Shown: piece by piece, positions 31,170 through 56,778 of the stretch | Position numbering within the stretch: the stretch's first letter is position 1 | Layout: each line of letters begins with the position of its first letter | From: Paenibacillus guangzhouensis | Lineage (GTDB): Bacteria > Bacillota > Bacilli > Paenibacillales > Paenibacillaceae | DNA length: 64,000 nucleotides | Assembly (NCBI RefSeq): GCF_009363075.1 | Contig: NZ_CP045293.1 | Span: 62,001 to 126,000, forward strand | Reading direction: 5' to 3' | Position numbers and translations under genes: made by a program | The notes under the pieces: generated by a model | The model's database searches: none | What the model saw: only the letters and a program-made list of their open reading frames with translations | Told to the model about the DNA's origin: nothing

Positions 31170-31300
31170 TTCATGATGAGATAAATCTTGATCGAAGTTA
31201 TCCAATGATGATCGACCGCGATTAAAGGTTGATTTATTCGCCAATCCGCATGTACACATTCGGATGTGGGCAAAAGATAATTTTTGAATTACCTCTAAGC
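31170..31300 (+). repeat. Structured repeat element, copy A (3' part)
   Basis: This copy keeps the core of the three-copy family: ATAAATC (31181-31187) with GATTTAT (31231-31237), GACCGCG (31214-31220), CCAATC, and the hairpin ATCCGCATG (31244-31252) with CATTCGGAT (31257-31265), then GATGTGGGCAAAAG and TTTTTGAA (31281-31288). The left GTTCAAAA end is missing. A terminator follows 12 bases later. Confidence 0.75.
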
Positions 31301-31311
31301 GGTTAATTGGG

Positions 31312-31359
31312 CCGAGAAAGGGAAATACTATGACGTATTACACTTTCTCGGTTTCTTTG
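31312..31359 (+). terminator. Terminator between repeat copy A and lonB
   Basis: CCGAGAAAG (31312-31320) pairs with CTTTCTCGG (31343-31351), extended inside by AATAC/GTATT, then TTTCTTTG. It can end the symporter transcript or attenuate lonB. Confidence 0.8.
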
Positions 31360-31417
31360 TGTTGTTCAAGAGTTTTGATTCAAGAGATAGCGAGGATGCA
31401 TTGAGGAGGAATGATGG

Positions 31418-33151
31418 ATGGATTTCAGTATGGCGTTAATGTTCATTCAAGTATTTTTTGCGATTATTATCGGCCTTTATTTCTGGAACTTGTTAAGATC
31501 GCAAAAAACGAATCGGACGGCGGTGGATCGCGAATCTAGGAAGGAAATGGATAAACTGCGTAAAATGCGCTCGATTTCCTTAACGAAACCGCTCGCGGAG
31601 AAGACAAGACCGACGACGATGCGGGATATTGTAGGACAGAAGGACGGATTGCGGGCATTGACGGCTGCGCTGTGCAGTGCGAATCCGCAGCACGTTATTA
31701 TATACGGACCACCGGGTGTCGGGAAGACGGCTGCCGCGCGCGTTGTCCTCGAAGAAGCGAAGAAGAACACGAACTCGCCGTTCATGTCTGATGCGAAGTT
31801 TACAGAGATTGATGCAACAACGGCGCGATTCGATGAGCGGGGGATTGCGGACCCGTTGATCGGCTCTGTGCATGATCCGATTTATCAAGGCGCGGGCGCC
31901 ATGGGTGTTGCCGGAATTCCGCAGCCCAAACCAGGTGCGGTGACCAAGGCGCATGGCGGAATCTTGTTTATTGACGAGATTGGGGAATTGCATCCGATTC
32001 AGATGAATAAGCTGTTAAAAGTATTAGAAGATCGTAAAGTGTTCCTTGAGAGTGCCTATTATAATTCCGAGGATACGAATATTCCTGTGTATATTCATGA
32101 TATTTTCCAAAATGGCTTGCCAGCAGATTTCCGTCTGGTCGGGGCTACGACGCGTTCGCCACAAGAAATATCGCCCGCGCTTCGTTCTCGCTGCATGGAG
32201 ATTTTCTTCCGTCCATTGCTGGCGGATGAAATTCGCGTGATTGCCTCGGACGCCGTGCGCAAAATAGGCTTCGAACCGTGCCCTGAAGCGGTAGAAGTGG
32301 TATCGCGCTATGCGACAAATGGCCGGGAGGCTGTGAATGTGATCCAGCTGGCAGCAGGTCTTGCGATGGCTGAGAAACGCAATAGCATCACCGCTGCGGA
32401 TGTGGAGTGGGTCGTGAACAGCAGTCAAATTCCGCCGCGTCCGGATCGCAAAATTCCGCAAGCGCCTAGTATCGGCTTCGTCAATGGTCTTGCTGTCTAT
32501 GGACCGAATATGGGAACACTGCTCGAAATTGAAGTAACGGCGATTCGAACGAAGCAGGGTCAAGGTAAAGTGAATATTACGGGCGTCGTAGATGAAGAAG
32601 AATTGGGCGGCGGCTCTCGTACATTGCGCCGGAAGAGTATGGCGAAGGGATCGATTGAGAACGTCCTTACGGTGCTTCGGACCATTGGCCTGGATCCATA
32701 CAGCTTTGATCTGCATGTGAACTTCCCAGGAGGGACGCCAATCGATGGTCCTTCAGCGGGGATTGCTATGGCGACAGCGATTGCGTCGGCCATGAACCAT
32801 GTGCCGATTGATAATAAGCTTGCAATGACTGGTGAAGTGAGTATTCATGGGAAAGTGAAGCCTATTGGCGGGGTCATTGCCAAGGTCGAGGCGGCATTTC
32901 AAGCGGGGGCAACAACCGTCATTATCCCGCGCGAGAATTGGCAGGAGATTTTCTCTGGCTTGAACGGTCTGAAGGTTATTCCTGTTGACACGATCCAAGA
33001 GGTGTTCCAGCATGTCTTCGGTGAAGCGGTGCAAGAAGTGCTGTTAGAGATTCCACAGGATAAGGACCTGTTCATTTCACCACCGGCGACATCGTTCTTG
33101 CAGGCGAAATCGGTGGATGACGTTCGTTCGACCGAGTCTGGCGGGGCATAA
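31418..33151 (+). CDS. lonB: ATP-dependent protease LonB
   Basis: 577 residues. An N-terminal membrane helix (ALMFIQVFFAIIIGLYFW) distinguishes LonB from LonA. It has an AAA+ domain with Walker [10 protein letters not shown] and Walker B GGILFIDEIGEL, and a C-terminal Lon protease domain with catalytic Ser in DGPSAG and Lys in GGVIAKVEAAF. In B. subtilis LonB acts in the forespore under sigma-F. GAGGAGG lies eight bases before the ATG. The gene is flanked on both sides by copies of the structured repeat. Confidence 0.96.
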   Translation: MDFSMALMFIQVFFAIIIGLYFWNLLRSQKTNRTAVDRESRKEMDKLRKMRSISLTKPLAEKTRPTTMRDIVGQKDGLRALTAALCSANPQHVIIYGPPGVGKTAAARVVLEEAKKNTNSPFMSDAKFTEIDATTARFDERGIADPLIGSVHDPIYQGAGAMGVAGIPQPKPGAVTKAHGGILFIDEIGELHPIQMNKLLKVLEDRKVFLESAYYNSEDTNIPVYIHDIFQNGLPADFRLVGATTRSPQEISPALRSRCMEIFFRPLLADEIRVIASDAVRKIGFEPCPEAVEVVSRYATNGREAVNVIQLAAGLAMAEKRNSITAADVEWVVNSSQIPPRPDRKIPQAPSIGFVNGLAVYGPNMGTLLEIEVTAIRTKQGQGKVNITGVVDEEELGGGSRTLRRKSMAKGSIENVLTVLRTIGLDPYSFDLHVNFPGGTPIDGPSAGIAMATAIASAMNHVPIDNKLAMTGEVSIHGKVKPIGGVIAKVEAAFQAGATTVIIPRENWQEIFSGLNGLKVIPVDTIQEVFQHVFGEAVQEVLLEIPQDKDLFISPPATSFLQAKSVDDVRSTESGGA

Positions 33152-33224
33152 TCGCATGATCGTACCGCGCTTGCAGGCCCATTGGTTTTTTTAAGCAACA
33201 TTTGATAAAATGTTATAAATGCAG

Positions 33225-33523
33225 GTTCAAAAAGCCGACTTTTCAGCACCTGAAAGTTTTCGTAGAAAACTGGCATCGTAAGCGATACTTGGGTTGTATG
33301 AAAATGAAGAAGGAGGAACGGAGTGTAGGCAGTACCTACATGAGTACCGGAGTTCGAAGTTGAATGCAAGATTCGATGCCGAGTTTGCTCCCTGCAATTC
33401 TTCGTGATGAATAAGCCTTTATCGTAGTAAATCCACGATGAACGACCGCGGTATATGGTGGGTTTATTCGCCAATCAGTAAGCATCTAGCTTCCTGATGT
33501 GGGCAAAAGGGGACTTTTTGAAC
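33225..33523 (+). repeat. Structured repeat element, copy B (full length with insert)
   Basis: Bounded by GTTCAAAAAG (33225-33234) and CTTTTTGAAC (33514-33523). The core repeats copy C: AATAAGCC (33410-33417) with GGTTTATT (33461-33468), ATCGT (33421-33425) with ACGAT (33435-33439), GACCGCG, and ATCAGTAAG (33474-33482) with CTTCCTGAT (33490-33498). It carries about 150 bases not in copy C: hairpins TTTCAG/CTGAAA and AGTTTTC/GAAAACT at 33241-33271, and a block at 33280-33402 with GTAGG/CCTAC. It fills the 415-base lonB-lon gap. Confidence 0.8.
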
Positions 33524-33566
33524 TTCCTCTAACATCTTATTGAGAGCCACTGGAGGTGCGTAACAC

Positions 33567-35906
33567 ATGGGCCTAACTAAAGCAAAAGGTCGCCGTATCC
33601 CTCTACTGCCCTTAAGGGGACTGCTTGTCTATCCTAGCATGGTATTGCACTTGGATGTCGGACGGGATAAGTCAGTTAAGGCTTTAGAGCGAGCAATGGT
33701 AGATGACAATATGATTCTGCTGTGTTCTCAATCGGACGTCAACATTGAAGATCCGGGTCAGGATGATATTTACTCGATTGGCACAATCGCCAAAGTCAAA
33801 CATATGCTGAAGCTGCCGAATGGCACAATTCGCGTATTGATTGAAGGCGTCATCCGCGCTGAAATTCTGCAGTATGTGGATAATGAGGAATATTTCGAAG
33901 TTCAAGTGCAGGAGCTGCCGGAACAAGAACTATCCGATGCGGAGACCGATGCGCTGATGCGTACGGTGCTGAGCCAATTTGAATACTACATAAATCTGTC
34001 GAAGAAAGTAACGCCAGAGACCCTCGCAGCCGTAACGGATATTGAGGAGCCGGGGCGTCTAGCGGATGTCATTACAAGCCATTTGTCGCTCAAGATGAAA
34101 GATAAACAAGAAATTCTTGAGACGATAGATGTGACGGAACGGCTGGAGAAGCTGCTCGACATTCTGAATAACGAGCGTGAAGTGCTGGAGCTTGAACGCA
34201 AGATCAGCCAACGCGTGAAGAAGCAGATGGAGAAGACGCAGAAGGAATACTATCTGCGTGAACAGATGAAGGCGATCCAGAAGGAGCTTGGCGAGAAGGA
34301 AGGCCGTCTCGGCGAAGTGGAAGAACTGCGTGCGAAGCTTGCGGATTTGAATGCGCCGGAGTCGGTGCAGGAGAAGATCAACAAGGAAATTGATCGTCTA
34401 GAGAAGACGCCTGCATCTTCCGCAGAAGGCGGAGTCATCCGGAATTATGTTGATTGGTTACTATCTCTGCCTTGGTCGCATAAGACGGATGATCATCTGG
34501 ATATTCAAGAAGCTGAGCGGATCTTAAATGAGGATCATTATGGTCTGGATAAACCGAAGGAACGTGTGCTTGAGTATCTTGCGGTGCAGCAGCTCGTCAA
34601 GCGGTTGAAAGGCCCTATTCTCTGTCTCGTTGGACCGCCTGGGGTGGGGAAGACCTCCTTGGCGCGATCAATCGCAAGATCGCTTGGCCGTCAATTCGTG
34701 CGCATCTCGCTTGGCGGCGTTCGGGATGAAGCAGAAATCCGCGGACACCGACGGACATACGTAGGGGCGATGCCAGGCCGAATCATTCAAGGCATGAAGA
34801 CGGCCGGTTCCATGAATCCGGTGTTCTTGCTCGACGAGATCGACAAGATGGCGTCGGATTTCCGCGGCGACCCATCGGCAGCACTGCTCGAAGTGCTCGA
34901 TCCGGAACAGAACAGCACCTTCAGCGATCATTTTGTCGAGCTGCCGTTCGATTTATCGAATGTCATGTTCGTGACGACGGCGAATGCGGTTCATAATATT
35001 CCAAGACCGCTGCTGGACCGGATGGAGATGCTCTATATCCCAGGCTATACGGAACTGGAGAAGCAGCAAATTGCAACGCAATATTTGGTACCGAAGCAGA
35101 CGAAGGAGCATGGCTTACAGCCGGAACAGATCGAAATTGAGGATGCTGCACTCTTAAAGGTTATTCGAGAATATACCCGGGAATCAGGGGTTCGTAATCT
35201 GGAACAGCAGGTTGCCGCGCTCTGCCGGAAAGCAGCTAAGCAAATCGTTGCTCATGAGCATGAGAAGGTCGTCATTGCTCCGGATGATTTGAAGGATTAC
35301 CTGGGCATTGCGAAATTCCGATATGGTCATGCTGAAGAAGAGAATCAGATCGGTTCGGTGACAGGCCTTGCTTGGACGGAGGTTGGCGGAGAAATGCTGA
35401 AAATCGAAGTCACCGTGATGCCGGGAACCGGGAAGTTGACGCTCACAGGCAAGCTTGGGGATGTCATGAAGGAATCGGCGCAAGCGGCGTTCAGCTATAC
35501 GCGTTCACGCGCGGAAGCGCTGCATCTAGAACCGAATTTCCATGAAAAATATGATGTGCACATTCATATACCAGAAGGCGCGATTCCGAAGGATGGACCA
35601 TCTGCGGGGATTACGATCGCTACAGCGCTGATCTCGGCGCTTACGAACCGCTATGTATCCAAGGATGTAGCTATGACAGGAGAGATCACATTGCGTGGTC
35701 GTGTGCTACCGATTGGCGGACTGAAAGAAAAATCTCTTGCTGCACATCGTGCTGGGATTAAGAAGATCCTCGTTCCGAAGGAGAATGAACGCGATCTGCG
35801 TGATATTCCAGATAGCGTCAAGAATGACGTGACCATCGTCCTCGTCGGACATATGGATCAAGTCCTGGAACACGCGCTTGTAGAACCGATCACGTTATCC
35901 GAATAA
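33567..35906 (+). CDS. lon: ATP-dependent protease La (LonA)
   Basis: 779 residues, full length. N-terminal LAN substrate domain ([17 protein letters not shown]), coiled-coil region (about 190-290), AAA+ domain with Walker A GPPGVGKT at 356-363, and C-terminal protease domain with catalytic Ser679 (GPSAG) and Lys in GGLKEK. A cytoplasmic quality-control and regulatory protease. GGAGGTG precedes the ATG, 27 bases after the end of repeat copy B, so that element would lie in its 5' leader if transcribed from upstream. Confidence 0.97.
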
Positions 35907-35938
35907 AGTTGTTGAACAAGAAAGGAATTACAGACGAC

Positions 35939-36577
35939 ATGAAAGTAACACAAGCAGAATTCATTATAAGCGCTGTAGGACCTGACCAATACCCTGATGA
36001 TGCCTTGCCGGAGATTGCTCTGGCAGGGCGTTCTAATGTTGGCAAGTCCTCGCTTATTAACCGTATGATTAACCGCAAAAATTTGGCGCGGACAAGCTCG
36101 CAGCCCGGCAAGACGCAATGTCTGAACTATTACCGCATTAATGATCTATTATATTTTGTGGATTTTCCGGGGTACGGCTATGCCAAAGTATCGAAGACCC
36201 AGCGTCAGGCGTGGGGAAAGATGATCGAGCGCTATCTGCTGGAACGCGATACGCTTAAATTGGTCCTACAGGTTGTCGATCTGCGTCATCCGCCTTCGAA
36301 GGACGATATCATGATGCGTGAATGGCTGATTCATTATGATATTCCGACCTGTGTCGTGATGACGAAGGCTGATAAACTGCCGAAGAGTCAATGGCATAAG
36401 CATATGAAAGTCATCAAAAATGATCTGCAGTTAACCTCGGAGAATCCGATGGTGATGTTCTCGTCGGAGATTGGCCTCGGCAAGGACGAGCTGTGGGAGA
36501 TTATTAGCCGTTATACCTCCTCTTCAGAAGATTCCGCCTTGGATTCAACAGATGATATAGGGAATCCGCAAAGTTAG
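35939..36577 (+). CDS. ysxC: Ribosome biogenesis GTPase YsxC/EngB
   Basis: 212 residues from the ATG at 35939, where the product begins [19 protein letters not shown] as in other YsxC proteins; an upstream TTG at 35909 is rejected. GTPase motifs are G1 [10 protein letters not shown]3 DFPGYG and G4 TKADK. It assists assembly of the 50S subunit and is usually essential. It follows lon by 32 bases and is probably co-transcribed, as in Bacillus. Confidence 0.95.
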
Positions 36578-36756
36578 TGTAGGAAACAGAGCATCTTCAT
36601 CAAAACCTCAATCTCTTCACGGAAAAATCCGTATTTTTCGTGGAAAATGAAGAAAAATCAAGGCTGGTTAGCAGGAATAATTGTGCTTGATCGTGTATAA
36701 TATCCTTAAGGCATTGAATTTTTGAAGTTGTAAGTTAAAGAATTGAGGAGATTTGT

Positions 36757-37344
36757 ATGGGTCAACGGCTCGCAACAGAGTATGTGAAAGCCAGTTTACA
36801 GTTAACGGAAGCAGAGATGTCCAAGTTTGTGCATAGTTTTGAAGAGCAGCATATTCATTCGTATGTGCTTGTGCTCGATAACGGCAATCAAGAAGTTGTT
36901 CTTGAGGATGGTGCAGGGGAGGAGATTCGGTTACCGTTTCAACGGAAGGCGACGACGTATGTATGTGAAACGTCCTGCCGTCTGGTTAAACCGAAGTTGA
37001 CCAATGCGATGCGTCAAGCGCTAGCAGCGTTTAAAGGAAACGCGATCGTGAATCGAATTTACAGAGGCTACACGATGGAATACAAGTATGATCAAGGGAA
37101 AGTATCTCGAATCGTTGAGCATGTTGATGGTCAAGATCGACTCATTTTCGAGTATAAAGATACACTTGGTCAATTGCAGCAGTTATTTAATCAGTGTCAA
37201 GTGGAGGCTCAGATCGAAGGGATTCAAGAGCGGATCAATTCATTGCTGGATGCAAGGAATCGTGCGAAGAACCTTGAGCAGATCGCCCAAATTGACGCGA
37301 AGCTTAGCAGCTATACGCAGCAATTATTTGTACTTGAAGCGTGA
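36757..37344 (+). CDS. Hypothetical protein, 195 residues
   Basis: I do not recognise a named family. It starts MGQRLATEYVKASLQLTEAEM, has mixed alpha/beta character in the first 130 residues with two Cys (VCETSC), and ends in a helix-rich or coiled-coil segment (EAQIEGIQERINSLLDARNRAKNLEQ). No signal peptide or membrane segment. GAGGAG lies upstream of the ATG, a TATAAT is at 36698, and a strong terminator follows, so it is a single-gene unit between ysxC and speD. Confidence 0.75.
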   Translation: MGQRLATEYVKASLQLTEAEMSKFVHSFEEQHIHSYVLVLDNGNQEVVLEDGAGEEIRLPFQRKATTYVCETSCRLVKPKLTNAMRQALAAFKGNAIVNRIYRGYTMEYKYDQGKVSRIVEHVDGQDRLIFEYKDTLGQLQQLFNQCQVEAQIEGIQERINSLLDARNRAKNLEQIAQIDAKLSSYTQQLFVLEA

Positions 37345-37364
37345 TATCGCGCATTGATACGACG

Positions 37365-37390
37365 AAGGAGTCCGGGAGGACTCCTTTTTT
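37365..37390 (+). terminator. Terminator after the 195-residue hypothetical gene
   Basis: AAGGAGTCC pairs with GGACTCCTT over a GGGA-type four-base loop, followed by T6. Confidence 0.9.
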
Positions 37391-37532
37391 ATGTGGCATG
37401 CTTGGAGCACTTTAAGGAAAAAACTCCACATTGTGGGATTGTTTTGTGCTGACACATATACAGGCGGCGTGCATATGTTGTATACGGGACGAAGGGCTTC
37501 CGTACATTTCAAATATTCACCAAAAAAAAGTA

Positions 37533-37561
37533 TTGCTTTTCTGGGCAGAAGATGTTATTTT
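37533..37561 (+). promoter_or_regulatory. Candidate speD promoter
   Basis: TTGCTT (37533-37538), 17-base spacer, TATTTT (37556-37561). It would give a leader of about 140 bases that includes the stem structure at 37580-37660. Confidence 0.5.
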
Positions 37562-37579
37562 TATTCTCGTTGAAAAGAA

Positions 37580-37662
37580 TATAGGAACCAGGATTCACTC
37601 AGGACATTGTATGTTGCGAGAGAGTTTTCCCTCGGGAAGTGAATGACGTAGGTCCTAGCGGA
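37580..37662 (+). promoter_or_regulatory. Structured leader upstream of speD
   Basis: TAGGA.CC pairs with GGTCCTA and, inside it, ATTCACT pairs with AGTGAAT; the apex contains CGAG..CTCG pairing with a purine-rich loop. The structure spans roughly 80 bases and ends about 45 bases before the speD start. It does not match a riboswitch class I can name. Confidence 0.45.
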
Positions 37663-37707
37663 TGAAATTTTTCAAACATTTTATTCCTAGGAAGGGGGAA
37701 CCGGAAG

Positions 37708-38106
37708 ATGGAATATTCAACTTTCGGAAGACACGTTGCAGTTGACACTTGGGGTGTTGATTTTGAACTCCTAAACAATGCTGAATTTTTGCAAGCTCAA
37801 ATGGTAGAGGCGGCTGAAGCTAGCGGTGCAACCGTACTGTCTGTTCAAGCCAAACAATTCGAACCACAAGGTGCAACGGTATTAGTAATGTTATCTGAGA
37901 GTCATCTCTCGATTCACACGTATCCTGAAAGAGGTTTTGCTGCAATTGATTGTTATACCTGCGGCGAGACAGTAGACCCGCAAGTTGCAATTGACTACCT
38001 GGTATCCGTACTTAAACCGGATAAAACGTATGCGAAGAAATTGGTTCGCGGTATCGGGGAGCTTCAAGTTGAGAACCCTGTGATGAAGCAAGAGCAATTC
38101 GCATAG
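37708..38106 (+). CDS. speD: S-adenosylmethionine decarboxylase proenzyme
   Basis: 132 residues, the short prokaryotic class (SpeH type). It makes decarboxylated AdoMet for spermidine synthesis. The self-cleavage motif LSESHLSIHTYPE is present: cleavage before Ser65 yields the pyruvoyl cofactor, with His70 and Cys85 as supporting catalytic residues. There is no speE next to it. A structured leader precedes it and a strong terminator follows. Confidence 0.95.
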   Translation: MEYSTFGRHVAVDTWGVDFELLNNAEFLQAQMVEAAEASGATVLSVQAKQFEPQGATVLVMLSESHLSIHTYPERGFAAIDCYTCGETVDPQVAIDYLVSVLKPDKTYAKKLVRGIGELQVENPVMKQEQFA

Positions 38107-38125
38107 TACGCCATAGAAGTCAAAG

Positions 38126-38167
38126 ATAACCATGAAGATGAGATTCGTCTTCATGGTTATTTGTTTT
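38126..38167 (+). terminator. Terminator of speD
   Basis: ATAACCATGAAGA pairs perfectly with TCTTCATGGTTAT over a nine-base loop, followed by TTGTTTT. Confidence 0.88.
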
Positions 38168-38294
38168 ATACCGGGGTCCCCGCAAAGTACCTCAATCGAC
38201 TTCGAAGTTTGTGGGCCACTTTTGGGGTTATTTTATCTCAGAACCCCATAGAATGTACAAGGTTGGTTATGTCCATTGCAAAGGGGTTCGGAGG

Positions 38295-38837
38295 ATGCGC
38301 AGAAATCAAAGTCGAAGTTCAGGGAAATGGTTCATTGTCGTTATGATCTTGCTTGTCATTGTCTGGCCGTCGTATCAGATTTATAAGCTGATGGGCGGCA
38401 ATGTGGCGAAGGAAGATGCAGGACGAATGCTCTACGAGGTTGCGGCATTCCAGATGGGACTCGTGCAGAATGCATTGAATGAAGCTTCAACCATGAAGAA
38501 TGCAAGTCAGTTGGATGCTGTTAAGCTCGCGATTTATTCGGCGAATTATACGCATGATCGTCTGGTGAAGGCCTATGACAATGATCATTTGAAAAGGTTA
38601 GCATCCCTCAATAAACTGCTTGAGTTCATTACGAGCGTTCAGATCGCAGGAGACCGTTCACTGCATGAAGAGGAGAAGCGTATACTGCAAGAGGTTCAGA
38701 GGCGTTACGGCGAATTCTACGAGGCCTATGAGCAGCTTGTGACAGGCAGCGGTCAGTTGGTTAGCTCGGAAGCTGTGATAGTATCTGAAGCCGATGAGGC
38801 GATGCAAGAACTGCTGGAGAAGCAAATGAATCCATAA
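38295..38837 (+). CDS. Hypothetical single-pass membrane protein
   Basis: 180 residues from ATG 38295 (MRRNQSRSSGKWF). A basic N-terminus is followed by one membrane helix (WFIVVMILLVIVWPSYQIY) and a mostly helical extracytoplasmic or cytoplasmic domain with many Glu/Lys (EEEKRILQEVQRRYGEFYEAYEQL). The longer frame from 38211 lacks a ribosome site, while AAGGGG lies eight bases before 38295. In Bacillus this position before hemA holds ysxD; no clear similarity is claimed. Confidence 0.68.
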   Translation: MRRNQSRSSGKWFIVVMILLVIVWPSYQIYKLMGGNVAKEDAGRMLYEVAAFQMGLVQNALNEASTMKNASQLDAVKLAIYSANYTHDRLVKAYDNDHLKRLASLNKLLEFITSVQIAGDRSLHEEEKRILQEVQRRYGEFYEAYEQLVTGSGQLVSSEAVIVSEADEAMQELLEKQMNP

Positions 38838-38969
38838 CCATAACCGCAGTAATCGTCTAGGAATCAACGTGATTTTGGTATAAGTGGAAAGGCTTAGGCT
38901 AACACTAATGACGTATGTCTTCCATTTCATAATTTTTTCAAATTTGAGCGTAATGGATTTGTCGAACTG

Positions 38970-38978
38970 TGATATAAT
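38970..38978 (+). promoter_or_regulatory. Extended -10 promoter of the hem operon
   Basis: TGATATAAT (TGn plus TATAAT) lies 36 bases before hemA. No good -35 box is visible, as is common for extended -10 promoters. No PerR box was found. Confidence 0.55.
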
Positions 38979-39013
38979 TTACATCAGATGCGAGAGAGAA
39001 GGCAGGTGACACA

Positions 39014-40420: not shown

Positions 40421-40434
40421 GTGGTGAAGGATTG

Positions 40435-41262: not shown

Positions 41263-41268
41263 TGACGT

Positions 41269-41940: not shown

Positions 41941-41979
41941 ACGATGCAATGGTGGAAGTCAGGACGAGGAGGCAACACG

Positions 41980-45533: not shown

Positions 45534-45550
45534 AGGAGATAGGAACTGAA

Positions 45551-47724: not shown

Positions 47725-47780
47725 ACGTGTTGGATCTGATGATCTAAAAAAAGTAGATGAGAGCACAAAGTAGAACAAAT

Positions 47781-47904
47781 AGGAAGGGGGTACGGGGTGG
47801 AGAAGCGATAGCGTCCGCCTTTGAAATTCGTGTTATAACCGCTAAACTTCATTCAATGAACACGAATTTCAACAGCGGGTGGAACCCCGTACCCCCTCCT
47901 TTCA
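47781..47904. repeat. Nested inverted-repeat element (about 125 bp)
   Basis: The outer arms GGGGGTACGGGGT (47786-47798) and ACCCCGTACCCCC (47884-47896) are perfect complements, and inside them TTGAAATTCGTGTT (47821-47834) and AACACGAATTTCAA (47859-47872) form a second perfect 14-bp stem. The whole folds as a two-tier hairpin. It carries no ORF. The middle block AGAAGCGATAGCGTCCGCC resembles a repeat I associate with Paenibacillus genomes, from memory only. Confidence 0.7.
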
Positions 47905-47930
47905 CATGCTCAAACGTAGCAGTTTCTTGA

Positions 47931-47960
47931 AGGACCTGGCCAACGGCCAGGTTCTTTTTG
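47931..47960 (+). terminator. Terminator of the hem operon
   Basis: ACCTGGCC pairs with GGCCAGGT over a three-base loop, followed by TCTTTTT. Confidence 0.88.
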
Positions 47961-48123
47961 CTAAGATTGATAATCTCCACGAAGATCGCAAACTTTGTCC
48001 CACTTTTCGAAAAATATATGGCATGCTCTTTCCTTCTAGGCATATAGATAAATGTAAGTAGTCATGAGTTCCATCTGACAATGATGGTCATTTAGGTTTA
48101 TATGCAGAAGGGAGGACCTCGTT

Positions 48124-49452
48124 TTGTTTGATCAATCCTATGGTTTGCGATTTGACATTTACGAGCGGGTTCACTTATCAGATGAAGTAGTTGGGATACA
48201 AGAATTAGAAGAGATCGAGCTTGTTCCGAATGTTCAAGTCGTTCCGCATGGAGACCACGCAACGCTGCGCGGCAATCTACTGCTGTCTGGCGTATATAAA
48301 GGCGACGATGAACAGCGATCAACGCTGACCCTCACGCACTTTATCCCTGTGGAAATTACGCTGCCAATGAATCGAGTACAGAGTCTGGACGATATTTCCG
48401 TCGAGATTGAGAATTTCGATGTGGACTTACTGTCGACACGGACGATAAACATTAATGGCGTGCTGTCGCTCAAAGGCATTGAACTCACGCAGCCGGAGCA
48501 ATCCCCATGGATGGCTGAGCAGTTTACTGTTGTGCATCAGACCGAGCCGGCGAAAGTTCAGGCTGGCGCACCGAATGATTTCCGTTCACAATCGAATGAA
48601 GAAGAGAATGATGACGAGGCCATTCAAGCCAGTAAAAATAATGATGCCCTGGATATTCTCGAATCGGTTAGCTTGTATGAACGTGAGCAGCAAATTGAAC
48701 GTGAGCTCGAGCAGAAACAGCAACAACAACAACAACAGCATATTGAGTTCCACCCTGAAGTCATTACTGTACAGCCTGAAGTCGATCCTCGGAGTGAGAT
48801 CCCGCAAGAAGCTGTGGTAACCGCGGAACGAATTGCCGGTGCATCGCCCAGCGAGCCGTTCCAGCAGATAGATTCGCTCGAGACGGACAAGGAACCTCAG
48901 CTGGATTTTACGCAAGAGGAACCAATCGAGCAAGAGAAAGTCTTTATTTCAAGTGCTGACAATGCTGTGGAAGAGTCGTCGCAAGAACCATTCTTTGATT
49001 ACGGATTCGTGGAAGAGCAACCAGCCCCGGATGTGGAGGAGCTCTCCGTCGAAGAACGAATCGCGGAAGAGAAGAAAGAGCTGAAGGTGGCCTTTAACAG
49101 TAAGAAGGATCCTGAACCTGAGAACGTGGGCAATATGGGTCTAAGTGCGCTGCTCTATTCGAGCAAGAATATTAAGGAAATTGAGACACGGCATGCCGTG
49201 GAAGAATTGGAGAAGCAAGCGAAGAAGTTGCGTTCTGATTCGAATGGTGAGGAAGTGGAGTGGAAGAGTCTGTTCTTGAATCATGAAGATGAGAAGAGAG
49301 CCTTCCGCAAATTGAAAATATGTATTGTTCAGCGGGAAGAAACTTTGGATGTGATCGCCGATCGATATAACATGAATCCACGTGAACTTCTGCTCTATAA
49401 TCGGTTGAATGATCATACCATTGCGGAAGGTCAAGTTCTGTATATCCCCTAA
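48124..49452 (+). CDS. spoVID: SpoVID-like spore morphogenesis protein with C-terminal LysM domain
   Basis: 442 residues. The N-terminal ~140 form a beta domain beginning with FDIYERVHLSDEV and VRGN-type strands (ATLRGNLLLSGVY), as in SpoVID. The middle is long, acidic and Gln/Glu-rich with a run of six or more Gln (about residue 200). The C-terminus is a LysM domain (LKICIVQREETLDVIADRYN...YNRLNDHTIAEGQVLYIP) that binds peptidoglycan or lipid II. SpoVID links coat assembly to encasement of the spore. It follows hemL in the same order as Bacillus. The start is TTG at 48124 with GGGAGG upstream. Confidence 0.87.
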   Translation: MFDQSYGLRFDIYERVHLSDEVVGIQELEEIELVPNVQVVPHGDHATLRGNLLLSGVYKGDDEQRSTLTLTHFIPVEITLPMNRVQSLDDISVEIENFDVDLLSTRTININGVLSLKGIELTQPEQSPWMAEQFTVVHQTEPAKVQAGAPNDFRSQSNEEENDDEAIQASKNNDALDILESVSLYEREQQIERELEQKQQQQQQQHIEFHPEVITVQPEVDPRSEIPQEAVVTAERIAGASPSEPFQQIDSLETDKEPQLDFTQEEPIEQEKVFISSADNAVEESSQEPFFDYGFVEEQPAPDVEELSVEERIAEEKKELKVAFNSKKDPEPENVGNMGLSALLYSSKNIKEIETRHAVEELEKQAKKLRSDSNGEEVEWKSLFLNHEDEKRAFRKLKICIVQREETLDVIADRYNMNPRELLLYNRLNDHTIAEGQVLYIP

Positions 49453-49518
49453 TTGAATTGAGTGGAGCAAAATGACATTCGATGAACATGATGTTCAGCT
49501 TGGATCGGATGAGCGAGC

Positions 49519-49573
49519 CCCCTCACCTGTCCCGTACGAGAAAATCTCGATCGGTTCAGGTGAGGGGTTTTTT
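49519..49573 (+). terminator. Terminator after spoVID
   Basis: CCCCTCACCTG pairs with CAGGTGAGGGG; an inner CGAG/CTCG stem extends it. T6 follows. Confidence 0.9.
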
Positions 49574-49608
49574 GCTGTTTTATGAGCGGCTTGCCTGATA
49601 CATGTTAA

Positions 49609-49642
49609 AGAGGCCTTACAGACTACCATCTGCAAAGCCTCC
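49609..49642 (-). terminator. Weak terminator of the 54-residue gene
   Basis: GAGGC.TT and AA.GCCTC pair around a 16-base loop; on the minus strand it is followed by CTCTTTAAC. Confidence 0.45.
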
Positions 49643-49657
49643 TAAACATGATGTATG

Positions 49658-49822
49658 CTAATAGACATTAAATAAAAATCCTAAGTAGATTAAGAACAGC
49701 GCGAACAAGATGAAGACACCAAATCCCGTAGGCAATATAAGCGTATGGACAAATTGAATGCAAATGAGAGGGAAAATGACGCCTTTGACGGCATAGCGGT
49801 TTTTGTACCACCATCGTTCCAC
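49658..49822 (-). CDS. Small two-helix membrane protein, 54 residues
   Basis: GTG start at 49822, with AAGGTGGTGG nine bases upstream. The product starts MERWWYKNRYAVKG and contains two membrane helices (GVIFPLICIQFVHTLIL and GVFILFALFLIYLGFLF) joined by a Pro-Thr-Gly turn. I do not recognise a named family. It is opposite to spoVID and valS, in a gap that would otherwise be 960 bases. The clean ribosome site, hydrophobic pattern and following hairpin support a real gene. Confidence 0.65.
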   Translation of the reverse strand: MERWWYKNRYAVKGVIFPLICIQFVHTLILPTGFGVFILFALFLIYLGFLFNVY

Positions 49823-49910
49823 GTTAGACCACCACCTTATCGTATTTTATGAGGATTGACGAGCCGGTATGACTAGGAAAGCCTTGCTTCTATACATCTA
49901 GCTGCGAAGA

Positions 49911-49939
49911 TTGACGTTGGAGGATTTAAATGATAAAAT
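49911..49939 (+). promoter_or_regulatory. Promoter of valS
   Basis: TTGACG (49911-49916), 17-base spacer, TAAAAT (49934-49939): strong sigma-A promoter just before the T-box leader. Confidence 0.8.
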
Positions 49940-49964
49940 ATTGGATATTCTATATAGGAAAGAC

Positions 49965-50249
49965 ATTGAAAGGGAATAGTAGGCACCGAACCCTTCAGAG
50001 AGTGGAGCTGATTGACGCTGTGAGGCTCCGCAGGATGTAGTTGCTGAAGTCGCCCCGGAGTTGTTTGTTCGAATCCTTCTTAGATTGCAGATGTATCTGC
50101 CGATGCAAGGAAGAGCTAGTGCAAACCGGTTGCAGCCGTTATCTGTTGAGTGTCGCATGCTATAGTGGTTGAAGTTGTTAGCGGTATGCGAAATAAAGGT
50201 GGTACCACGGAAGATAACCTTTCGTCCTTTGCGACGAAGGGTTTTTTTG
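49965..50249 (+). promoter_or_regulatory. T-box leader of valS with terminator
   Basis: A complete T-box leader. The conserved antiterminator sequence AAGGTGGTACCACGG is at 50196-50210. The terminator is AACCTTTCGTC (50216-50226) with GACGAAGGGTT and T7. The likely specifier codon is GTC (Val) at 50049-50051 in the context GAAGTCGCC. Uncharged tRNA-Val would stabilise the antiterminator and let transcription continue into valS. Confidence 0.92.
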
Positions 50250-50420
50250 TTTGGATTTAAAGAATGTGTGAGATCACAATGGTTCTTTGAATTCCGAAGG
50301 AAGAGATGACAAAATCATTCTTCCGGCCTAGCTCCCTAGTTTATTGGTTTTACCTATAGACTTATATGGGGCGAAACGTGTAGGTGTAGACGCTGAATTT
50401 AAATAAATGGAGGGTTACTC

Positions 50421-53090
50421 ATGTCAGAAGCACAGGATACTAAGAACCAGACGTCGATGCCAACGACGTATGATCCAAAAGCGGCAGAGCAGAAATGGTA
50501 TGATTTCTGGATGAAAAATGAATTTTTCAAAGCGGGACAACGTCCGGATGCGCCTAAATATTCGATCGTTATTCCGCCGCCGAACGTCACAGGTATGCTT
50601 CATATTGGGCATGCGCTCGATTTTACCTTGCAAGATATTCTTGTACGCGCGAAGCGGATGCAAGGCTATGATGCACTATGGCTGCCGGGTTCCGACCATG
50701 CGGGAATTGCCACGCAGACGAAGGTGGAGCAGAAGCTGCGTGAAGATGGGGTATCTCGTCATGATCTAGGGCGCGAGAAATTCCTTGAGAAGGTATGGGA
50801 TTGGAAAGAAACGTATGCGAATACGATTCGTGAGCAGTGGGCGAAAATGGGCTTGTCGCTCGATTACTCCCGTGAGCGGTTTACGCTGGACGAGGGTCTA
50901 TCCAAGGCGGTTCGTGAAGTGTTCGTCAAACTCTATGAAAAAGGCTTGATCTATCGCGGCAAATATATCATCAACTGGGATCCAGCAGCACGCACAGCAT
51001 TGTCGGATATCGAAGTAGAGTACAAAGAGGTGCAAGGGCATCTGTACCATTTGGAATATCCGCTCGCGGATGGCAGTGGTTCAATCACGGTTGCGACGAC
51101 ACGTCCTGAGACGATGCTTGGCGATACTGCTGTTGCTGTACACCCAAAAGATGAGCGTTACAAAGATATGATCGGTAAAATGCTGATTCTTCCGATCGTT
51201 GGGCGTGAAATCCCGGTGATTGCAGATGATTATGTTGAGAAGGAATTCGGTAGCGGTGCAGTTAAAATTACACCTGCGCATGACCCGAATGACTTCGAAA
51301 TGGGACTTCGCCATAACTTACCGCAAATCACTGTCATGGATGAATCCGGTGTTATGAACGAGCTTGCTGGTAAATACCAAGGAATCGACCGTGCGGATTG
51401 CCGGAAGCAAATCGTGAAAGATCTGAAAGAGCTTGGTGTATTGATCAAGATCGAAGATCATGTTCATCAAGTTGGACATAGTGAGCGCAGCGGTGCTGTC
51501 GTTGAGCCGTACCTCTCCACACAATGGTTCGTACGGATGAAGCCACTCGCTGAACGTGCGATTGAAGCGCAAAAATCAGGTAAAGGTGTTAATTTTGTTC
51601 CGGATCGGTTCGAGAAAACATACTTGAATTGGATTGAGAATGTTCGTGACTGGTGTATCTCCAGACAGCTCTGGTGGGGACATCGTATTCCAGCTTGGTA
51701 CTGTAATGATTGCGGTGAACTTCATGTCGCGCAGGAAGATGTAACAGCTTGCTGCAAATGCGGAAGTTCGAACCTAAGACAAGACGAGGATGTATTGGAT
51801 ACGTGGTTCAGTTCAGCGTTATGGCCTTTCTCCACACTTGGGTGGCCAGAGAATACAGAAGATTTGAAACGCTACTACCCGGTTGATGTTCTCGTAACAG
51901 GTTACGACATCATTTATTTCTGGGTTGCTCGCATGATCTTCACAGCGCTGGAATTCACGGATGAAATTCCATTCAAAGATGTATTAATGCATGGTCTCGT
52001 TCGCGACTCGGAAGGCCGTAAAATGTCGAAGTCGCTAGGCAATGGGGTTGACCCACTTGATGTCATTGACCAATACGGGACAGACGCAATGCGTTACATG
52101 ATCTCGACGAGCAGTACGCCAGGGCAAGATCTACGTTTCCGTTGGGAGCGGGTAGAGCAAGCGCGGAACTTCGCGAATAAAATTTGGAATGCTTCCCGGT
52201 TTGCACTGATGAATCTTGAAGGTTTTACGGTGGATCAAATCGATATTAGCGGCAATCTCTCCACAGCAGATCGTTGGATTCTGCACCGCTTGAATGAGAC
52301 GGCTCGTGATATTACACGTCTGATGGATTCTTATGAATTTGGTGAGACTGGACGTCTGTTGTATAACTTTATCTGGGATGATCTATGTGATTGGTATATC
52401 GAGTTTGCGAAGCTTAGTCTCTATGGTGAGGATGCCGAAGCGAAACGCACGACACAATCCGTATTATCCTATGTACTTGACCGCACACAGCGGATGATTC
52501 ATCCATTCATGCCTTATATTTCCGAGGAAATATGGCAGCATTTGCCGCATGAAGGCGAGACGATTACACTTGCGGCATGGCCGACTTACGATGCGAAGCT
52601 CGAAGCGCCGGATGCGGTGAAAGAAATGAACTTGTTGATGGATATCATTCGCTCGGTACGTAACGTACGTGCAGAAGTGAACGTTCCGATGAGCAAGAAA
52701 ATTGAGCTGATCATTAAATCGGCTGATGCGCAGAGCGATGCGATTATCCGTAACAATGAAGTCTATATCAAGCGTTTCTGTAACACATCTCAGTTCGAAG
52801 CTTCTATGGACATTGCGGCGCCGGAGAAAGCGATGACTGCGATCGTGACCGGAGCTGAGCTGTATCTTCCGCTAGCAGGTTTGATTGATATTGCACAGGA
52901 AATCGAGCGTCTGGAAAAAGAAGTGAAGCATCTAAGAAGCGAAGTTGAACGTGTGGATAAGAAACTGTCGAACGAAGGTTTCGTGGCCAAAGCACCTGCA
53001 AAAGTCATTGAAGAAGAACGTGCGAAACAGCAGGATTATTCCGATAAGCTTGATAAAGTGCTTGCACGCATTCAAGAGCTGCAAAGCTAA
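50421..53090 (+). CDS. valS: Valyl-tRNA synthetase
   Basis: 889 residues, full length. Class I synthetase with HIGH at 61-64 and KMSKS at 534-538. The editing domain (about 200-380), anticodon domain and the C-terminal coiled coil ([22 protein letters not shown]) are present. A zinc-type Cys cluster (CNDCGE...CCKCGSSN) is visible near 430-455. It charges tRNA-Val and is regulated by the T-box upstream. GGAGGG lies before the ATG. Confidence 0.98.
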
Positions 53091-53110
53091 GAGCGAAGGG
53101 TGAGATCACC

Positions 53111-54490
53111 ATGGCGGACAATCGCGGGGCTGTAACCACAGCCCCTTTTGATGAATATCAACAGGCAGTAGATTGGATTAACGGCCTGATTTCTTTTGGG
53201 ATTAGACCTGGTATGCAGCGCATTGAATTGATGATGGAGCGCCTCGGGCATCCGGAGCGCACGCTGAAATTCATTCATGTTGCGGGGACGAACGGCAAAG
53301 GATCGACGTGTGCGTTTCTTACTTCTGTGCTTCGTCAATCGGGTTATGATGTTGGAACGTTCACATCACCGTATATTACGAAGTTCACAGATCGTTTCCA
53401 GTATAATGGCACGAACATCCCAGAGGAGACTTTGCTGGCGATCACGAATACGTTGCGGCCTCTCGTGAAAGAGATAGCTGCGTCTGAATTGGGATCACCA
53501 ACAATGTTCGAGGTCTCGACGACGATTGCGATTATGTATTATGCGAAGTACGTATTCCCTGACTTTGTCGTCTGGGAGACAGGGCTTGGCGGCCGTATGG
53601 ATGTGACGAATATCGTGACGCCGATCATCTCGATCATTACGAATGTCGGTCACGATCATATGGATATTCTCGGCGATTCGCTCGAAGCTATTGCTCGGGA
53701 AAAGGCAGGGATTATTAAACCTGGCGTACCTGTTGTGAGCTCGGTGGAACAACTGGAAGTGATTGAGGTGCTCCGCAATACGGCGAAAGAGCAGAAATCA
53801 ACCTTGTATTTAATGAATGATCAATATCATTTGACGACGTTATCGAGTGAAGAGAATCAGCAAGTGTTCGCATTCCAAGGACCTTTCCGTACGCTGGATC
53901 AGCTGTCGATTCAGCTGAATGGTGCGCATCAGATCAAAAATGCTGGTGTAACCGTGATGGCGCTGGAAGTGCTGAAGCAGTATTATGCCCTCTTGATTGA
54001 TGACGAGGATTTATTGGAAGGATTGCGCACAGCGGCATGGGCTGGACGGCTTGAGATGATCTCAGAACAGCCGCGCCTACTAATTGATGGAGCCCATAAC
54101 CCGGAAGGTGCTGCAACCCTTGCAGAAGCATTACGAGAGACTTATACGTACGAGCGTGTACATTTGATGATGGGAATGTTATCAACGAAGAATCATACAG
54201 ACTATTTACGGCATATACTACCAATAGTGGATACGCTCATTTTGACCGAGCCTGATTTCCGTAAAAAAATGAATGCGGAGGATCTCTACGCCATCGTACA
54301 GCATGTATTGGCAGAATCACCGCGTCCTGATCTTCAAATCATCATCGAACCGAACTGGAAGGCGGCGCTTGCGAAGCTAGCGTCAATGGCAGCTCCTGCA
54401 GATCTAACCGTTGTCTCCGGTACTTTGTATTTAATCGCAGATGTACGATCTTATATTTTGTATCAAACCGATTCTGAAAAAGGTTGGTGA
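53111..54490 (+). CDS. folC: Bifunctional folylpolyglutamate synthase / dihydrofolate synthase
   Basis: 459 residues, Mur ligase superfamily. The ATP loop is AGTNGKGSTCAFL, followed by the SPYITKFTDRF region and the C-terminal motif DGAHNPEGA. It adds glutamate to dihydropteroate and folates. It follows valS by 20 bases, as in Bacillus, and overlaps nothing; the next gene, murC, begins eight bases after its stop. Confidence 0.96.
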   Translation: MADNRGAVTTAPFDEYQQAVDWINGLISFGIRPGMQRIELMMERLGHPERTLKFIHVAGTNGKGSTCAFLTSVLRQSGYDVGTFTSPYITKFTDRFQYNGTNIPEETLLAITNTLRPLVKEIAASELGSPTMFEVSTTIAIMYYAKYVFPDFVVWETGLGGRMDVTNIVTPIISIITNVGHDHMDILGDSLEAIAREKAGIIKPGVPVVSSVEQLEVIEVLRNTAKEQKSTLYLMNDQYHLTTLSSEENQQVFAFQGPFRTLDQLSIQLNGAHQIKNAGVTVMALEVLKQYYALLIDDEDLLEGLRTAAWAGRLEMISEQPRLLIDGAHNPEGAATLAEALRETYTYERVHLMMGMLSTKNHTDYLRHILPIVDTLILTEPDFRKKMNAEDLYAIVQHVLAESPRPDLQIIIEPNWKAALAKLASMAAPADLTVVSGTLYLIADVRSYILYQTDSEKGW

Positions 54491-54497
54491 GGATTTC

Positions 54498-55877
54498 TTG
54501 AATACGACAGAACATGTTCATTTTATCGGTATTGGCGGCTACGGGATGAGCGCGATTGCACGCGTCATGCTAGAGATGGGGTACACCGTAACGGGCTCCG
54601 ATGTCGCTGCACAGGAATTAACAGAGAAGCTAGCGAAGAAAGGCGCCAAAATATATATTGGCCATACAGCGGATAATGTTGAAGGAGCTGACCTCGTCGT
54701 CTATTCAACAGCTTTATCCAGAGACAATGTGGAACGCGTAAGGGCGGAAACGCTCAATATTCCGGTTCTGCATCGCGCACAGATGTTGGCACGCTTACTG
54801 AATACCCGTAAAGGGGTAGCTGTAGCGGGTGCGCATGGCAAGACAACAACCTCGTCGATGATTGCGCTCGTAATGGAGCAATGCGGTACAGACCCGACTT
54901 ATATTATCGGTGGCGAGATTATGAATATGGGGACCAATGCAAAGGCGGGTAAAGGCGATTATGTCGTCGCGGAAGCCGATGAGAGCGATGGCTCCTTCTT
55001 GCAGTACCATCCACAGCTTGCGATTGTGACGAATATCGAAGCGGATCATCTGGAGAATTATGACGGGGATTATGCGAAGTTGAAACAAGCTTATGTGCGA
55101 TTCCTTAACCAAGTGAAGCCAGGTGGCAAAGCCATCGTGAGCGCCGATGATGAGATTCTGCAAGCCATGATTCCAAATCTGCAGTGTGATGTGCTTACAT
55201 ACGGCATCGACTCGCCGGCGGATTATCGTGCGACAGATATCGTCCTGGGTGATCGCAAGAGCTCGTTCACATTTACGTATCAAGATGTTCCGCTCGGCAG
55301 AGTTGAAATGTCTGTACCTGGGCGCCATAACATTTCAAATGCAATGGCAACGATTATTACGTGTATGCAAGCGGACATTCCATTCTATGCGATTGCTGAA
55401 TCGATCAAGGAATTCCGTGGTGCGAAGCGCCGGTTCCAAGTGCTCGGTGAAGTGAATGATATTCTTGTGATTGATGACTATGCGCATCATCCGACTGAGA
55501 TTCAAGCGACGATCCAAGCGGCAAAGTCCACAGGTAAACGGATTATCGCTGTTTTCCAGCCGCAGCGCTACACGCGGACGTATTTCCTGCTGGAACAGTT
55601 CAGTCAAGCGTTTGGTGATGCGGATGAAGTCATTATTACGGATATCTATTCACCTGCAGGTGAGAAGCAGATCGAAGGCATTTCTTCGTCTAGACTTGTT
55701 GAGATGATCATACAGAACAGCAATCCGAACACGAAGTATATTCCAACGAAGGAAGAAGTATTAGCACAATTGAGCGATTATGTCAGACCTGGCGATCTCG
55801 TCATTACGATGGGTGCAGGCGACATTTGGAAGGCGGCAGACGGACTGGCCAAGACACTGCGTGCCCGTGCCGAATAG
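54498..55877 (+). CDS. murC: UDP-N-acetylmuramate--L-alanine ligase
   Basis: 459 residues from the TTG at 54498 (product MNTTEHVHFIGIGGYGMSAIA). A GTGAGGA site lies a few bases upstream; the longer frame overlaps folC and is rejected. The nucleotide loop GAHGKTTTSS is at about 111-120, EADESDGS and HHPTE motifs follow. It adds L-Ala to UDP-MurNAc, the first peptide step of peptidoglycan. Its place after folC is not that of B. subtilis. Confidence 0.96.
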   Translation: MNTTEHVHFIGIGGYGMSAIARVMLEMGYTVTGSDVAAQELTEKLAKKGAKIYIGHTADNVEGADLVVYSTALSRDNVERVRAETLNIPVLHRAQMLARLLNTRKGVAVAGAHGKTTTSSMIALVMEQCGTDPTYIIGGEIMNMGTNAKAGKGDYVVAEADESDGSFLQYHPQLAIVTNIEADHLENYDGDYAKLKQAYVRFLNQVKPGGKAIVSADDEILQAMIPNLQCDVLTYGIDSPADYRATDIVLGDRKSSFTFTYQDVPLGRVEMSVPGRHNISNAMATIITCMQADIPFYAIAESIKEFRGAKRRFQVLGEVNDILVIDDYAHHPTEIQATIQAAKSTGKRIIAVFQPQRYTRTYFLLEQFSQAFGDADEVIITDIYSPAGEKQIEGISSSRLVEMIIQNSNPNTKYIPTKEEVLAQLSDYVRPGDLVITMGAGDIWKAADGLAKTLRARAE

Positions 55878-55894
55878 ATTTTTGATGAATACAG

Positions 55895-55927
55895 AAACGT
55901 CCAACCCTACCGGGTTGGACGTTTTTT
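55895..55927 (+). terminator. Terminator of the valS-folC-murC operon
   Basis: AACGTCCAACCC pairs with GGGTTGGACGTT over a four-base loop, with T6 at the end. Confidence 0.92.
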
Positions 55928-55953
55928 GGCTTAGCCATGCTTTTGGCATCACA

Positions 55954-56574
55954 TTATGTCTTCCAGGGGAGAGTAACTTCACGCGGGGGTTTCCGATAAC
56001 AGCAAATCCCTGTAGAGACGCCTCCGATCGTAATGGTCAGGATGGATAGGAAAAATGTCCGAGGTGAGAATAAGAGACCGCCAAGCGTAATGATGAGCCC
56101 GTCGAGAATGAAAATTGTGAATCCGACATTGACGGATAATTTGTCCGCGATATATTTGGCGAGTAAATCGGTTCCGCCCGTGCTAATGTTGTTCCGCAGC
56201 ATGATGCCGAACCCGACACCCATGAAGATTCCGCCAATGATAGAGCTGATGATCGGATGGATCTGAAGCGGAGCAAAGCTCATGTGACTTATACGTGAGA
56301 AGATGTCAATGAAAAAGGAGGAGATGAGCATGCCTGGAAAGCTGCTGAAGAAGAAATGACGATATTTGAACCAGGCGAGCAGAAGGATCGGTAAACTGCA
56401 CACAATAAAGGTGATGCCCACATTCGCCTCCCACAAGTAATTAAGGATTAAAGCGATGCCGATAACACCCCCATCGAGCACATTGAAGGGAATAAGGAAG
56501 AGGTTGATTCCGATCGCGAGCAGCATGCTCCCCGCGATCGTAGCAACGATTCTTTTGAACAACTGCACTTTCAT
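55954..56574 (-). CDS. YitT-family membrane protein
   Basis: 206 residues with five to six membrane helices (IVATIAGSMLLAIGINLFLIPF, VGITFIVCSLPILLLAWF) and the family motif NISTGGTDLLAKYI. The usual C-terminal DUF2179 domain is absent, so it is a short YitT form ending after the last helix. Function unknown, likely transport. ATG 56574 is used; the longer frame starts with TTG at 56592. The start lies next to repeat copy C, which separates it from spoVAD. Confidence 0.85.
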   Translation of the reverse strand: MKVQLFKRIVATIAGSMLLAIGINLFLIPFNVLDGGVIGIALILNYLWEANVGITFIVCSLPILLLAWFKYRHFFFSSFPGMLISSFFIDIFSRISHMSFAPLQIHPIISSIIGGIFMGVGFGIMLRNNISTGGTDLLAKYIADKLSVNVGFTIFILDGLIITLGGLLFSPRTFFLSILTITIGGVSTGICCYRKPPREVTLPWKT

Positions 56575-56604
56575 CAGCTCCACTTTTAACAACCGAATAA
56601 AATC

Positions 56605-56778
56605 CTATCTGTGAGAGTTCAAAAGTTGGCATTTCAGCATGGCATCGTGATGTATAAACCTTTATCGAAGTAAATCCTCGATGAGCGACCGCGATCCTGA
56701 TGTAGGTTTAGACGCCAATCAGAAAGAACATCACTTTCTGATGCGGACAAATGATGATTTTTGAACAACCACTATCTG
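56605..56778 (+). repeat. Structured repeat element, copy C with flanking direct repeats
   Basis: Inverted ends GTTCAAAA (56617-56624) and TTTTGAAC (56759-56766) enclose the family core: TAAACC (56655-56660) with GGTTTA (56705-56710), ATCGA (56664-56668) with TCGAT (56678-56682), GACCGCG (56687-56693), and ATCAGAAAG (56718-56726) with CTTTCTGAT (56734-56742). The 7-bp direct repeat CTATCTG flanks the element (56605-56611 and 56772-56778), five bases outside each end. It lies in antisense relative to both neighbouring genes. Confidence 0.8.

Follow-up and report, generated by a model that had tools for sequence, protein, structure and literature searches.

According to excerpts of the papers cited in this paragraph, miniature inverted-repeat transposable elements (MITEs) are short, mostly intergenic sequences with inverted ends that generate target duplications and fold when transcribed (PMC10969869), and ERIC and Correia elements are named beside them (PMC10969869, PMC3049150). 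BOX elements of Streptococcus pneumoniae are described as composites with inverted ends and optional internal modules, mutually inserted, and in their predicted RNA fold boxB makes few contacts with the rest (PMC3049150). The bcr1-bcr3 repeats of the Bacillus cereus group are interspersed, MITE-like and of high copy number, often lie in untranslated regions (UTRs) or between operon genes, and have a mobility tied to a TTTAT motif (PMC6542083, PMC3446304). Here we describe two families of repeats, family I and family II, found together in a stretch of 64,000 nucleotides from Paenibacillus guangzhouensis (assembly GCF_009363075.1, contig NZ_CP045293.1, positions 62,001 to 126,000 of the forward strand; this whole stretch is called the window below). 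Both are small mobile DNA elements with many copies in soil bacteria related to Paenibacillus. A literature search by topic and by sequence strings, which covered few subscription journals and left the main bcr1 papers outside, gave no description of either family.

Family I is a backbone of about 180 bp with 16-bp inverted ends and 5-bp target duplications. It is likely, in our judgement, to be a MITE-like non-autonomous mobile element with a selected fold, in which family II is nested as a module and whose copies exchange modules by recombination. The inverted ends, AT-rich 5-bp duplications, an empty site, high copy number, arrays, a covarying fold that favours the plus strand and modules at fixed sites are seen at the level of sequence; we infer, in addition, that the element was transposed in trans, that selection acts on RNA, and that modules switch through recombination. 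Family I resembles the MITEs, as far as our excerpts describe them, in its inverted ends, duplications and empty sites, and is called MITE-like rather than a MITE because the parent transposon was not found in the searches given below. It differs from plain MITEs in that its covariation extends across genera with a strand bias, which is unexpected from plain decay, and in that no parent insertion sequence was found. With BOX, as known from the excerpted description, it shares the composite, interspersed nature, inverted ends, optional modules, a predicted RNA fold and nested insertion; BOX, however, has one optional kind of module in variable tandem number, whereas here three related modules occupy three sites and a second family a fourth. 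The likeness to bcr1-bcr3, again from excerpts, lies in the interspersed, MITE-like, high-copy character, and the two are set apart by description, not by comparing sequences: switching of modules at fixed sites is a feature of family I not mentioned for bcr1-bcr3 in these excerpts (PMC6542083, PMC3446304), and bcr1 is reported on plasmids, while the plasmid matches of family I are three Paenibacillus records alone.

An earlier note on the window, written from the sequence alone, had described a structured repeat in three copies. The blocks that it named are indeed common to the three places, which are composites of families I and II and consist of the following parts.

33220..33529, plus strand: copy 2, a complete family I element of 310 bp between lonB and lonA, carrying a site-1 module and a family II module
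33225..33234, plus strand: left inverted end of copy 2, GTTCAAAAAG (inverted repeat I1, 19 nt, 84% complementary)
33251..33291, plus strand: site-1 hairpin module of copy 2, 41 nt, replacing GAGAA of short copies (insert alignment and module comparison)
33409..33503, plus strand: family II module of copy 2 at site 4 (GTGAT^CAAA), the block of the earlier note (model R2)
33514..33529, plus strand: right inverted end of copy 2, CTTTTTGAACTTCCTC (inverted repeat)
31166..31295, plus strand: copy 1, a remnant with the family II module and the family I right end, the remaining backbone being deleted (model R2)
56611..56772, plus strand: copy 3, both family I ends and the family II module, with the backbone core internally deleted (model R2)
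56606..56610, no strand: left target duplication of copy 3, TATCT (read from the sequence, in the register of the 156-element test below)
56773..56777, no strand: right target duplication of copy 3, TATCT, perfect (read in the same way)

Copy 2 thus has GTTCAAAAAG at the left and CTTTTTGAAC at the right, with the structured interior between; the borders of its family II module were set from the exact presence and absence of the module in L008/L356. The covariance model of family II (R2) was built from 19 copies, the three window copies among them, and by construction matches the window at 31175-31275, 33406-33508 and 56649-56752 with E values of 2.4e-20 to 3.6e-25. The model of the family I backbone (R1) reaches E 0.99 at best in copy 3. 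The repeat claimed as a whole is real, yet it is one module of about 95 nt, family II, inside the larger family I element. By eye, the stems ATAAATC/GATTTAT, AATAAGCC/GGTTTATT (with one G-U pair) and TAAACC/GGTTTA are present as claimed, as is the change from ATCCG/CGGAT to ATCAG/CTGAT; the change of ATCGT/ACGAT in copy 2 to ATCGA/TCGAT in copy 3 also stands, but copy 1 retains ATC/GAT alone. The earlier note had missed that the element is a composite of two families, how many copies it has and that its modules switch.

R1 was built from alignment A1, which holds 44 short copies of many genomes and was drawn from loci L001-L060 after ten loci (long, cut or duplicate forms) and the extra array copies of L045 and L051 had been excluded by hand. 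In place of three copies, this genome of 6.95 Mb holds at least 50 backbone places at E <=0.01 with R1 (best 150 of 1947 candidates scored) and at least 20 places of the shared block with R2; BLAST with copy 2 gave 52 match rows, several of which are pieces of one element. Backbone matches were found in 31 of 98 genomes and in 34 of 299 genomes drawn from the class, the genome itself being counted in both cases. Further copies in relatives, whose absence would have refuted the earlier note, do exist. Outside the order, six genomes of one genus (g62) have at least nine backbone matches each, and eight more genomes have weak ones (E 7e-4 to 1e-8); among three g62 loci inspected, two have the usual left end GTGTTCAAAAAG and one a variant. 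Among the matches listed for an exact 20-mer of the core, the named genomes are Paenibacillus, Fontibacillus and Cohnella, almost all of them Paenibacillus. The same 20-mer is held by one metagenome bin labelled Cryptobacteroides (L190) and by two viral contigs (L359, L360). A blastn search against 72,556 plasmid records gave three matching records, all Paenibacillus and none Bacillus, and no match was found in the phages searched for family I.

The ends of family I could be defined in 156 of 331 model hits in 262 loci, by way of the inner GTTCAAAAAG and CTTTTTGAAC. Base counts over these 156 elements, which are partly non-independent since tandem copies and related genomes are included, give the terminal inverted repeats GTGCGTGTTCAAAAAG and GAGGTTGTTCAAAAAG, as in MITEs, and a target consensus of about CTWWAAG to the left of RTGCGTGTTC and to the right of GAACWACC; in pattern form, the ends are GNGNNTGTTCAAAAAG with the 5-bp duplication. 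At one register a perfect 5-mer duplication was found in 38 of the 156 elements (4.5 expected from mismatched flank pairs), the other 12 offsets giving 0-4 each. An empty orthologous site is present between lonB and lonA of P. terrigena (G001), in which AAATGTTATAAACATC is uninterrupted. Another relative, G002, has no element upstream of lonB. Upstream of its lonA, G002 carries a free-standing family II copy (L093/L095) at the same lonB-lonA point as the family I composite here, which may reflect a hot spot or a coincidence.

Tandem arrays, in which neighbouring model hits lie 150-205 bases apart and mostly 180-188 (the element plus the duplication), occur in 28 of the 262 loci, a count that includes overlapping loci and several loci chosen for their arrays. 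In the arrays L045/L108 and L047/L109 the closing stem has another sequence that still mostly pairs. A fixed neighbour gene was not seen in the one array region inspected (L108), which is flanked by ordinary genes. Decay through internal deletion leaves relics of the ends alone; L086, L103, L202 and L227 are scarcely more than both inverted ends, forming a short hairpin. By simple calls of open reading frames (ORFs), 137 of the 156 elements lie between two ORFs (49 in the arrangement --, 47 in ++, 28 in -+ and 13 in +-), two lie within an ORF, and the other 17 either had no ORF on one side or duplicated another row. Long open frames that run into the right end have their stop codon no more than 5 bp from the border in 38 of 117 cases, against 9 of 105 at the left end; because the stops lie so close to the border, the stop codon itself is often the insertion target, chiefly at the right end.

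The interior of family I is under structural constraint. RNAalifold on A1 gave 31 pairs, 19 of them with changes on both sides, and with the closing stem added by hand the structure has 43 pairs, in which 93.5% of cells are paired (81.3% in shuffled alignments) and 29 pairs change on both sides (18.5 shuffled). The covariation score is 0.356 compared with 0.138 for shuffles (standard deviation 0.007; 0/500 as high) and at most 0.081 for slid alignments, the structure being derived from A1 itself, which favours it over the slid controls, and the shuffles ignoring relatedness. Because the effect is large and includes changes such as TTGCG/CGCAA to TCACA/TGTGA between genera, the fold is hard to dismiss. 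Two short helices beside the closing stem are nearly invariant and have no covariation support. The closing stem of L045, L047, L060 and L337 differs in sequence and is, by eye, still mostly paired. Across all 31 pairs there are 120 G-U cells to 9 A-C cells, and 42 to 9 in the arm that lacks the nearly fixed G-U pair; this count is biased by a pair list that comes from plus-strand folding and so admits G-U on that strand. The plus strand is more stable than the minus strand in all 60 short elements sampled from 121 (mean energies -58.4 and -47.6). The excess of G-U over A-C indicates that one strand acts, and the fold probably acts as RNA rather than as single-stranded DNA.

A search of Rfam at the gathering score gave no match over the elements. 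Up to E 10, the region 33150-33566 matched two eukaryotic families alone (E 2.1 and 3.1), and up to E 5 the only matches in 11 loci were mir-84 across the L057 array (E 0.63) and, outside the L045 array, a sub-threshold glutamine riboswitch. A known RNA family was accordingly set aside, as nothing over the elements rose above chance. A conserved leader of lonA was rejected on the absence of the element from G001 and the different repeat at that place in G002. GTGCG is a consensus sequence of group II introns and stands at the left end of family I; such an intron was dropped in view of the target duplications and the lack of an Rfam match. Many core copies have a Shine-Dalgarno-like AAGGAGG in A1 columns 48-60 without a conserved reading frame, and a small protein in the core (AAGGAGG followed by ATG or GTG after the P5 hairpin) was dropped on reading A1, in which neither frame nor stop is kept.

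Modules enter this fold at fixed places. When 212 elements were aligned to the short consensus, inserts at least 15 nt long fell mainly at four places: after CAGCACC (site 1, 25 inserts), around CTGAAG (site 2, 29), around TGAGTACC^GGAC (site 3, 39, counted as insert events, some modules having been divided by the aligner) and at GTGAT^CAAA (site 4, 9). The 15 further inserts, one of them the family II of L153 in reverse orientation, are single cases or array neighbours; L258 and L257 have inserts of 40-47 nt within or close to the P5 hairpin, a possible fifth site. Sites 1-3 receive hairpin modules with a net gain of 36-40 nt in most cases, and site 4 the family II block of about 95 nt. The modules of sites 1-3 are related (mean identity between sites 0.62-0.73, shuffled 0.50), that of site 2 being the reverse complement of those at sites 1 and 3, and in the fold sites 2 and 3 lie on opposite sides of a single internal loop. 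For 60 of 61 modules the nearest neighbour came from the same site; the 61 include one chance match, from L164.

Matching of flanks between this genome and 40 loci of P. terrigena, which are part of its copies, gave ten distinct shared places, nine of which were compared. The module state differs at six of the nine, modules being present or absent as exact units.

L005/L349: differs at site 1
L008/L356: differs at sites 2 and 4
L011/L107: differs at sites 1, 2 and 3, with the modules in P. terrigena alone
L020/L351: differs at sites 1 and 3
L027/L357: differs at site 3
L074/L328: differs at sites 2 and 3

Of the remaining three, two are short in both genomes and one, as read from flank matches and sequences, is a relic here and full in P. 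terrigena. L067/L336 was matched on one flank alone. At the lonB place, family II and the right end are present here, the backbone without family II in P. terrigena, and neither in G002.

Family II is an independent family of about 115-120 nt. R2 matched 17 of 59 genomes, its own included, and gave at least 59 places in G002, 58 in G071, 39 in G074 and 20 in this genome. Since family I, in the search of 98 genomes, has no match in G007, G059, G071 and G074 and two in G002, family II is essentially free-standing there; some of its copies form tandem runs whose period is 116-121. In an alignment of 46 rows the closing stem covaries, with changes on both sides in seven of nine pairs, and the two-helix structure scores 0.160 against 0.084 shuffled (0/500 as high), and 74.7% of its cells are paired (70.9% shuffled). 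Pair types are ordinary in number (144/500 shuffles as high), and the inner helix, with 60.9% of its cells paired, is weak, some alignment rows being one base out of register. The covariation that the earlier note saw in its three copies therefore holds beyond chance in larger alignments of both families. No target duplication was detected in 34 delimited copies; the left border is preceded by T in all 34, and the right end continues into A-rich sequence. In L153 and L198, family II lies inside family I beside the same GTGATC in opposite orientation.

Our proposal for family I is that a transposase acting in trans, lost or missed by the searches, would have inserted it into T/A-rich sites, often with the right end at stop codons, and that its interior is kept because the RNA fold matters to its spread or tolerance; the fold might, for example, provide a 3'-UTR-like domain that is stable and harmless, or an RNA on which multiplication depends. 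Dispersed copies would then swap modules through homologous recombination (gene conversion) within the backbone they share, a process suggested by the fact that each site has its own module lineage. Several observations weigh against this proposal. The majority of the delimited elements (118 of 156) lack a perfect duplication, as expected if they are old and equally if some were never inserted, and the lonA copy (copy 2) has no clean one. In L074/L328 private backbone variants are kept across the module switch, so that gene conversion would need short tracts. The transposase family PF01609 was absent from six of seven genomes searched, this genome included; PF13751 matched four of seven, two above the cut-off, this genome not being among the matches; and PF01797 (Y1 transposase) is represented here by two fragments. 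The end pattern occurs at 39 sites in this genome (4 in the control), and the 13 inspected comprised 11 elements or relics and two chance sites (L087, L088), without a transposon. Nor did an autonomous partner emerge, by eye, from the end motifs that lie apart from core hits in 35 of the 262 loci; L319 has two end-motif hits. Across these three transposase families, searched in seven genomes each, we found no transposase-coding element sharing the ends of family I, other families being possible. Since nine short copies here are 4-15% from the consensus and the best pair among 22 delimited copies is 95% identical, current activity is doubtful.

Family I could alternatively be a host-beneficial structured RNA, regulatory or of the 3'-UTR kind, that was duplicated and kept for its function, with the inverted ends as its closing stem. 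Conservation of the fold across orders, the G-U bias and the exchanged but mostly pairing closing stems of L045/L047/L060 and L337 are what such an RNA would give. We regard this as unlikely, however, in view of the target duplications and the empty site, the decay to relics of the ends, the neighbour genes in no fixed arrangement, and module states and even presence that are not conserved between congeners. In IS200/IS605-type and REP/RAYT elements the structure acts as single-stranded DNA, and family II likewise has hairpins and conserved border bases. A role of the structure as single-stranded DNA in transposition or replication would agree with hairpin modules in either orientation (site 2 reversed relative to sites 1 and 3), with the occurrence of family II in two orientations within one part of family I, and with the left-border T and undetected target duplication of family II. 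Against it stand the 5-bp duplications of family I, the bias of G-U over A-C, and the absence of PF01797 from G001, G002, G007, G059 and G071 (G074 has one copy with an internal stop), although G002 and G071 are rich in family II; we consider such a role improbable, and mobilisation by IS200/IS605 was set aside on this lack of PF01797.

The modules themselves, both the hairpins of sites 1-3 and family II, could be tiny mobile elements with precise insertion into, and excision from, the four sites, an explanation to which we give some, though little, credence. Their exact presence and absence at orthologous sites, the relatedness of modules from different sites and the occurrence of family II both free-standing and nested, in both orientations, are consistent with it; but the modules of sites 1-3 replace, rather than split, a short sequence of empty copies, and the same-site nearest neighbours fit exchange between copies better than hopping. 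The MITE-like element with a selected fold and exchanged modules brings together what the earlier note had offered as separate proposals, namely selection on structure or a new structured RNA, a BOX-like modular repeat and a mobile element with hairpin ends: all fit, since inverted ends and target duplications mark a mobile element, the covarying fold favours one strand, and the modules occupy fixed sites.

As for the surroundings in the window, genes assigned by Pfam place copy 1 between a sodium:alanine symporter gene and lonB, and copy 3 between a YitT-family gene and spoVAD. Known RNAs of the window are an azaaromatic (yjdF) riboswitch at 22535-22648, a tRNA at 23406-23479 and a T-box leader at 49957-50232.

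We suggest tentatively that family I may be a bacterial selfish RNA module, its multiplication or lasting tolerance resting on an RNA fold selected across two orders. It would form a scaffold whose arms, at fixed positions, are interchangeable; family II, a second selfish structured RNA, would be fitted into it, and dispersed copies would serve each locus as a shared pool of arms. Small interspersed repeats are often taken as by-products of insertion sequences, whereas here the interior is under clear structural constraint with a strand bias. Among orthologous neighbourhoods, some lack the element, some hold a short one and others one bearing one to three or more arms, which constitutes a natural experiment on the role of the fold. 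If recombination between dispersed copies is what switches the arms, short-tract recombination among scattered bacterial repeats could also be measured here.

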